Below, in pieces: positions 18,633-46,919 of a stretch of DNA of 54,507 nt (the first letter of the stretch is position 1; the number at the start of each line of letters is the position of its first letter). The DNA is from Ruminococcus sp. Its GTDB lineage: Bacteria; Bacillota; Clostridia; Oscillospirales; Ruminococcaceae. Position numbers and translations under genes: made by a program. Below the pieces are notes generated by a model that made no database searches, was not told where the DNA came from, and was given only the letters and a program-made list of their open reading frames with translations. The DNA lies in assembly GCA_017526445.1 (NCBI GenBank), contig JAFXRI010000016.1, positions 1 to 54,507 on the forward strand, given 5' to 3'.

Positions 18633-18666
18633 AAAACAAAAAGCCCGCCTCTGTAAAGAGACGAGC
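18633..18666 (-). terminator. T-box regulated terminator upstream of leuA
   Basis: Minus-strand stem GCTCGTCTCT / AGAGGCGGGC with a TTAC loop followed by a T-run. Its 5' arm overlaps the T-box sequence, so the alternative antiterminator would release it. Confidence 0.92.
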
Positions 18667-18909
18667 ATATCAACCCGTGTTACCACTCTCATTCGCATAC
18701 ACGTCACCGCATACGCCTCACCCGCATCAAACAATGCGGCGCTCTGTAACGGGAGCACCCGTACACGGCTACTTTGATTTCGCCCTGCCTGCTCGGGGAC
18801 GAGCTATAGCATACTTCCCTTACCGCCTCACACCGAACGGCGGCTCTCTGAAACCGAAGAAACACGCTTTTTTTCCCTTCAACGCATTTTGGATATTAAT
18901 TATTCACTG
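18633..18909 (-). promoter_or_regulatory. T-box riboswitch leader, probable leucine specifier
   Basis: The conserved T-box core GAGTGGTAACACGGG lies at 18674-18688 (minus strand), ahead of the terminator. Upstream, a Stem I apical region with the AGAGAG and GGTGTGAG landmarks lies near 18820-18850. The candidate specifier codon is CUC (Leu) at 18801-18803, immediately before the GTCCCCGAG element. Uncharged tRNA-Leu should pair with the specifier and with the T-box bulge and allow leuA read-through. The T-box class is certain from the core; the specifier frame is read by eye and agrees with the downstream gene. Confidence 0.93.
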
Positions 18910-21830: not shown

Positions 21831-21837
21831 GGATAAA

Positions 21838-22028
21838 GGCAACACCGCGCAACCCGCGGCTTGCGCCTCTGCACGTCATCTGCTTGCATATTTCCCGTCA
21901 TAGCACACAAATTTTCCTTGCCGGGCGAAAAGCGAATTGGTCTTCGCTCGCCCGCCTGCGTCAAATTTATGCACTCTGACGAAAAATCTGACTGGGCATC
22001 TGACGCACAGGGGTTGTGCGGTATTGCC
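21838..22028 (-). mobile_element. MITE-like element, copy 2 (complete, inside the arginine operon)
   Basis: A 191-bp copy in the opposite orientation to copies 1 and 3. Its ends are the 18-bp inverted repeat (GGCAATACCGCACAACCC type), and it is flanked by the direct repeat TAAA at 21834-21837 and 22029-22032, a 4-bp target duplication. It is about 20 bp shorter than copy 3 because it lacks the internal AGCTCAA/TTGAGCT hairpin. It separates the pentapeptide gene from argH and contains no gene. Insertion into the operon could alter read-through or RNA stability for argH and the genes after it. Confidence 0.88.
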
Positions 22029-22050
22029 TAAACATATCCATAAAGCTGTA

Positions 22051-33710: not shown

Positions 33711-33757
33711 AAAAAAATCCAAGGCAATACTGCACAGGCTGCGTGCGGTATTGCCTT
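33711..33757 (-). terminator. Terminator hairpin derived from mobile-element ends
   Basis: The 37-bp inverted repeat at 33721-33757 pairs AAGGCAATACTGCAC with GTGCGGTATTGCCTT around a 7-nt loop. These are the terminal repeats of the MITE-like element with its interior missing. On the minus strand the stem is followed within four bases by seven T residues, so it can terminate transcription from the kinase gene upstream. No matching target duplication flanks it. Confidence 0.75.
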
Positions 33758-46523: not shown

Positions 46524-46535
46524 GCACATTTTTAA

Positions 46536-46746
46536 GGCAATACCGCACAACCCCTGTGCGTCAGATCGTGCGCAAGCTCAATAAAGTTGAGCTGAGATTT
46601 TTCGTCAGAGTGCATAAATTTGACGCAGGCGGGCGAGCGAAGACCAATTCGCTTTTCGCCCGTCAAGGAAAATTTGTGTGCTATGACGGAAAATATGCAA
46701 GCAGATGACGTGCAGAGGCGCAAGCCGCGGGTTGTGCGGTGTTGCC
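46536..46746 (+). mobile_element. MITE-like element, copy 3 (complete reference copy)
   Basis: A 211-bp element. The 18-bp terminal inverted repeats are GGCAATACCGCACAACCC and its complement, with one mismatch. TTAA directly flanks both ends (46532-46535 and 46747-46750), a 4-bp target duplication. Inside are the AGCTCAA/TTGAGCT hairpin (missing from copy 2) and the GGGCG..CGCCC stem-loop. Short open frames inside are not gene-like. It fills most of the gene-free stretch 46454-46994; the rest holds the divergent amidohydrolase and wzz promoters. Confidence 0.9.
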
Positions 46747-46919
46747 TTAATATATTTATCACAAGCATATCCCTCCGGCAGCTTCCGGGAAGGGGCAGAG
46801 GGTACCAGGAAAAGACTGTTTATCCTTTATTTTCATTTGATTTACATATGCGATAAATTGCAAGGCGCTTTTTTATTAATCTTTGTTTGTTTTTTAGCTG
46901 CATCTGCCGAAAAATGTCA

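Follow-up and report, generated by a model that had tools for sequence, protein, structure and literature searches.

The window analysed here, a stretch of 54,507 nucleotides from Ruminococcus sp. (contig JAFXRI010000016.1), harbors three copies of a short gene-less element. Copy 3 (46536–46746, 211 bp, hairpin strand +) is bounded by TTAA at 46532–46535 and 46747–46750; copy 2 (21838–22028, 191 bp) has its hairpin strand on the minus strand and lies between two TAAA tetranucleotides (21834–21837 and 22029–22032); and copy 1 (1–167, hairpin strand +) has lost its 5' part at the contig start and is followed by TTAA on its visible side (168–171). All these positions and lengths, the opposite orientation of copy 2 and the flanking tetranucleotides agree with the original prediction, as does the identity of about 99% given there for copies 1 and 3, which share 165 of 167 bases. 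Copy 3 begins with the terminal inverted repeat GGCAATACCGCACAACCC (46536–46553, +) and ends with its right counterpart (46729–46746, +); between them lie an optional side hairpin module, AAGCTCAATAAAGTTGAGCT (46574–46593, +), and the apex of the core, which consists of CGCAGG, a variable apical stem and CAAGG (46624–46668, +). The module is missing in the 172-bp class of copies, and some relatives have different self-complementary letters at that place. Including TTAA, the arms of copy 3 span 22 bp and are 95% complementary; a single position of the 18-bp ends is T.G in the hairpin strand. Copies 1 and 3 match the covariance model of the element with 80.3 bits (model positions 23–172) and 112.9 bits, respectively, and copy 2 with 151.6 bits on the minus and 23.5 bits on the plus strand. 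A fourth hairpin of 33 bp (33723–33755), with both ends degenerate and without a matching duplication, is probably a remnant of the element. Elsewhere in the window, positions 18654–18891 (minus strand) form a T-box leader (107 bits, above the Rfam gathering score).

The end motif, with one mismatch allowed, occurs 129 + 138 times in the window's own 2.14-Mb draft genome (2,136,361 bases, 116 contigs, 78% complete) and 1 + 1 times in the reversed-motif control, an excess showing that the copies in the window are not due to chance. A BLAST search with the 219-bp unit, which answers the original call for a genome-wide search, yielded at least 40 distinct placements in this draft (40 of the 227 candidates were scored). 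The stretches examined in this genome contain 39 complete copies in size classes of 32–71, 172, 191/192 and 210/211 bp, the larger classes having additional self-complementary modules that vary between relatives. The repeat breaks the assembly, as 47 of the 62 contig ends examined fall within a copy. The near-complete genome G151, from another genus of the family, has 174 + 173 end motifs. An earlier pattern search, positive in six of 297 genomes, gives too low a count, since the 15-bp end had to be followed by CC: genomes G020, G030 and G035 carry the element and were missed by it. Full copies avoid genes and are intergenic at high copy number, being found within predicted genes in 0/29 cases in the own genome and 1/54 in G151 (genes called with a home-made program; coding fractions of 0.88 and 0.85, respectively). 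The recent activity that had been proposed from copies 1 and 3 holds in part: the family is amplified, recently for some of its members, and near-identical copies are present. The own 172-mer had no match in plasmids, and the exact motif TTAAGGCAAYACCGCACAACC was absent from viral contigs, where elements with variant letters occur. A literature search over the listed titles and starts of abstracts, with most subscription papers lying outside it, returned no report of the element.

The 4-bp flanks are equal in 23 of the 36 complete own copies whose flanks could be read and in 45 of the 62 in G151, that is, in most copies of both genomes, and unequal in 13 and 17 copies, respectively. At sites that are not self-complementary, direct matches were found in 7/19 own and 15/32 G151 cases and inverted matches in one and none; since non-palindromic sites match directly and hardly ever inverted, the flanks are duplications rather than the outer part of longer inverted repeats. 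The original prediction of TWAA-type duplications was right about the 4-bp length, but the rule is wider: the duplicated sites are mostly YNNR, chiefly TTAA, and also CATA, TTGA, CAAG, CTTG, TAAG, CTAA and TTAG, exceptions such as ATAA being rare. An empty site was sought in the corresponding spacers of six relatives; copy 2 is absent from all of them, and divergence of these spacers is too great for a single TAAA to be placed. The lack of a gene, the terminal inverted repeats and the direct duplications in most flanked copies bear out the description of the element as non-autonomous.

The search for a transposase gene with matching ends, also called for originally, led to a complete insertion sequence (IS) in the same genus (L154, 1381–2487), which is 1107 bp long, is flanked by TTAG on both sides, shares the same 15-bp ends and encodes a 322-aa transposase. 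This protein contains the domains DDE_Tnp_1 and DUF772, scores 290 bits against the NCBIfam IS5-family model NF033581 (cut-off 140) and is 100% identical to one encoded on a Ruminococcus sp. RGIG3439 contig of goat-rumen origin. The family, left unrecognised in the original prediction, is therefore IS5, given the common ends and the 4-bp duplication. Elements of the IS5 subgroup generate 4-bp duplications of the YTAR type; the complete IS has TTAG on both sides, and the MITEs use the wider YNNR, mostly TTAA. Searching six genomes for Pfam DDE_Tnp_1 yielded in addition a 660-bp element with the same ends, a broken transposase and TTAA on both sides, which is a deletion derivative, intermediate between the IS and the MITE. 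Several of the closest relatives of the transposase in other genomes, whose ends were sought at loci L166–L199, belong to ISs with similar ends, including relatives from Ruminococcus and Angelakisella; the 4-bp flanks are equal in some and unequal in others. Thus, assignment of the element to MITEs of the IS5 type is well supported, and, as judged from the shared ends and duplications, so is its probable mobilisation by an IS5-type transposase.

In a TBLASTN-type search, five of 23 genomes had the transposase, whole or in pieces, and no relative was found in G000, G005, G151, G229 and G285. The window's own draft, at 78% completeness, yielded no transposase relative, and neither did G151 despite its numerous end motifs. 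G151 has two tandem pairs (C2:557287–559676 and 1885286–1887675) of a DDE_Tnp_1 gene with an open frame of 459 aa; three of the loci were scanned and had no convincing type-1 ends (those of the element in the window), two of them having no right end at four mismatches. Derivation of the core from the IS5 element was considered and rejected: covariance model R1 matched 0/94 IS and transposase loci at E 0.1, and model R2 matched no IS locus among 46 sources.

The core forms a fold that differs between the strands. The folding energy of the 219-nt unit is −123 kcal/mol for the plus and −89 kcal/mol for the minus strand; over 86 full copies from three genomes the mean gap between strands is 25.6 kcal/mol (smallest 3.2), with on average 7.6 G.U pairs in the stable strand versus 1.5 in the other, and the stable strand is the richer one in 84 of the 86 copies; these counts, like those of copies within or between genes, of identity and of local skew given elsewhere and, as far as their copies were listed, those of the replication bias by gene context, include the first ten G151 loci, which were chosen by a pattern favoring one orientation. 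In an alignment of 19 distinct 172-mers from five genomes, selected to be below 93% ungapped identity, 96.2% of the cells of a 70-pair consensus are paired versus 86.2% after shuffling, and pairing is far lower if the partners are slid along the alignment. Thirty one of the 70 pairs are changed on both sides versus 16.8 in shuffles, and none of 500 shuffles gave as many, but related rows may exceed shuffles without any structure, and the case for the fold rests on the summed evidence, chiefly on the strand asymmetry. Two-sided changes that keep the pair are also seen in a second alignment, which was fitted to the model and is biased towards the fold. Unpaired positions and a 3' side hairpin are conserved as well.

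The covariance model scores 178 bits on one strand of locus L048 and 31 bits on the other. Full-length matches were found in four genomes from other genera, each from a different one (G017, G020, G030 and G035; G020 and G229 are among the training genomes of model R1), as well as on Subdoligranulum plasmids, in gut phage records and in viral contigs. Conservation of the core fold on one strand across genera is thus well supported. At the gathering score, Rfam 15 matched no element in the window, copy 3 or three further loci; matches below this threshold are at the chance level, two of them (E 1.2 and 8.5) adjoining the end of copy 3 or overlapping it. An azaaromatic (yjdF) riboswitch (71 bits) is present in the relative G151 at L246, 6266–6390.

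The core also occurs behind other ends. Eight X elements of G017 have it flanked by the ends GGTCGCATCTAAAAA; seven of them score 120–150 bits and the eighth 72.5 bits, and the 4-bp flanks are equal in six (TCAA, TTTA twice, TATA, TTAA and ATAT). When one X element was compared with 52 distinct type-1 elements equal to it in length, 99.6 of 142 inner positions agreed, but only 7.0/15 and 8.8/15 positions of the ends, the reference values for type 1 between two genera being 98.3/142, 13.4/15 and 14.7/15. The inner part of the X element is as similar to type 1 as type 1 is between genera and the ends are dissimilar, which suggests that the outer 15 bp were replaced; by this comparison of letters, the probable presence of the same core behind different ends in G017 is well supported. 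For the remaining end types the same conclusion ranges from possible to likely. Y elements of G017 and G020, with the ends GAACCTGTCTTCATAAG, have equal 3-bp flanks in four of five cases (TTA twice, TCA and TAA), and a 49-bp Y element has lost the core; a Z element of G017 represents a further, weaker end type. An element of a viral contig that is cut on its 5' side has the 3' end GGAATCACTGATTAAAT, at most two mismatches away from the ends of ISs of transposase relatives. Viral contigs contain four additional end types, two of which have TA flanks when read by eye; the apical motif at that place served to select three of the four loci and is therefore not independent evidence for them, and the remaining one (L454) came from a match of the model at another place in its locus. 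BLAST of the weak end types L472, L431 and L468 against phage records gave no match.

Several single loci are recorded here in their own right. A gut phage record (L475, 1980–2139) contains a 61-bp hairpin with the ends GGAAACACTGCATAAAG three bases from a type-1 element, and such adjoining of two end types is a possible route of end exchange. Another gut phage record (L476, 60–260) has a 119-bp deletion form between inverted copies of the flanking sequence. At L380 of G017, ends GGGAACCTCTAAAAA followed by CCTCCCTCAC, similar to X ends, lie at 1193 and 16202; the former has a candidate partner end at 1390, with three mismatches, and none was found for the latter.

In G151 the orientation of the element follows replication. 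The hairpin strand is on the minus strand in 47 of the 58 copies counted on the rightward replichore and on the plus strand in 41 of 63 on the leftward one, so that it runs against the leading strand in 88/121 copies (p = 6e-7; p = 2e-4 with neighbors collapsed), counted as zero-mismatch forward places among the matches listed in mirrored searches; at up to two mismatches there are 158 places (91 + 67). The origin was placed by dnaA, with 10 of 356 trial origins performing equally well or better, and the flips in orientation had been noticed ahead of the dnaA search. The bias is independent of gene direction: among 52 copies it is 10 to 5 where genes run with the fork, 9 to 2 where they run against it and 12 to 1 between divergent genes, with no bias between convergent ones (7 to 6). 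It amounts to 61/75 in one subtype (mean identity 94%, 40 copies) and to 27/46, which is not significant, in the other (85%, 19 copies). Neither the own genome analysed by contig skew (28/45) nor local GC skew as a proxy of replication (14/23 own, 33/55 in G151 and 4/7 in G285) yielded a significant bias. As the element has no gene, the bias cannot stem from transcription of a transposase gene within it. The most likely source of the bias in G151 is that insertion by the transposase is coupled to the fork, as has been reported for other insertion sequences (PMC5371812).

These observations go beyond an ordinary MITE, as they comprise a fold conserved on one strand, a core behind other ends and a replication bias. 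It is quite improbable that the hairpin is a by-product and that the two-sided changes arose by template switching between the arms, with the fold unselected. Arm-to-arm correction would yield matched changes, but it produces G-C and A-T pairs and not a one-sided excess of G.U pairs (7.6 vs 1.5), and the unequal scores of the two strands of L048 and the conservation of unpaired positions and of the 3' side hairpin also argue against it. In its favor, the bacterial MITE families in the accessible part of a 2007 review (PMC2229807) all form long stem-loop transcripts. We regard a function of the hairpin as read-through RNA, for example in regulating adjacent messages as proposed for Neisseria NEMIS, as unlikely, yet less so: G.U pairs suit an RNA fold and full copies are nearly confined to intergenic regions, but between co-directional genes of both genomes the hairpin strand runs with the genes in 20 cases and against them in 29, with no clear bias. 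For this reason a cis-acting RNA was set aside, and a role of the core in transposition or at the fork is favored.

The replication bias could alternatively result from purging, if hairpins on the lagging-strand template stalled forks or were cut and the copies were lost. The favored orientation does put the weaker-folding strand as the lagging-strand template, and the strands of two copies differ in DNA folding energy too (−65.6 vs −54.4 and −52.9 vs −39.3 kcal/mol); however, the subtype with the stronger bias is the more uniform and presumably the younger one, opposite to what slow purging would give, and we consider purging a minority explanation, about as doubtful as read-through RNA. Slightly less credible still is convergence, in which case any long hairpin would score in the model and the cores found with other ends would not belong to a single lineage. 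Antisense matches, the control for hairpin shape, reach 24–71 bits where listed and overlap the weaker end types (37–66 bits), so scores in this range are no proof of kinship; the apical motif CGCAGG-N9-17-CAAGG is not rare, occurring 12 times in 838,576 bases on both strands of IS loci; and among 61 windows of viral contigs that match the pattern L472 alone folds better than all 256 random windows. Against convergence stand the high scores of the X elements, the compared one being 70% identical over 142 bp, and the four occurrences of the motif in 127 kb of G017, all at the apex of Y (three near-identical copies) or Z and hence equivalent to two independent cases.

We therefore return to a family of MITEs that an IS5-family transposase moves in trans and that have a selected folded core, a reading to which we assign a probability of roughly 0.8. 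The transposase would recognise the 15-bp ends GGCAAYACCGCACAA, act in trans on gene-less copies and, on insertion, duplicate a 4-bp target, mostly YNNR. The core would be the part that selection maintains, acting on RNA or on single-stranded DNA, and may persist by means of any transposase that fits its current ends, while insertion coupled to the fork would produce the bias against the leading strand. More tentatively, and with somewhat less than an even chance, the true unit may be the folded core itself, a selfish and structured nucleic acid that persists beyond its ends and swaps partners, using terminal repeats of different IS5 subgroups and perhaps of IS630-like, TA-duplicating transposases, in several bacterial genera and their phages.

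MITEs are usually identified by their ends and the interior is seen as a leftover, whereas here the interior is conserved and the ends can vary. This raises the questions of how a folded core benefits a parasite without genes and how such elements survive the loss of their partner transposase. The orientation bias of a gene-less element would test fork-coupled insertion without an effect of transposase transcription, and, on the practical side, the element disrupts genome assemblies.

Among known systems, IS5-family ISs (NF033581) resemble the element in the ends and the 4-bp duplication, the deletion intermediate being a link, and differ in that the element is gene-less and the model of its interior matches none of the IS loci searched. 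As far as the accessible parts of the sources go, ERIC/IRU, Correia/NEMIS and RUP (PMC2229807) are likewise short and gene-less, with terminal inverted repeats, target duplications and a long stem-loop, and RUP is tied to IS630-Spn1 by common ends as the element is to IS5; however, these families mostly have TA at the ends instead of 4-bp, mostly YNNR duplications, and the core of our element is also found behind other ends. In the same portion of that review (PMC2229807), the CIR repeats found in Caulobacter and Brucella have a predicted RNA structure that is shared across genera; the conserved structure of the element alone is therefore not new, but CIR repeats consist of two arms and a linker rather than one long hairpin with a side hairpin, and that portion makes no mention of an exchange of ends. 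TIMEs, as outlined in the available part of PMC4133298, are also non-autonomous and come from a known transposon family, which is Tn3 in their case and IS5 here. Finally, the fork-coupled transposons covered by the accessible part of PMC5371812 (Tn7 TnsE, IS608 and IS transposases binding the beta clamp) share with the element an orientation that tracks the direction of replication, but the element itself is gene-less.
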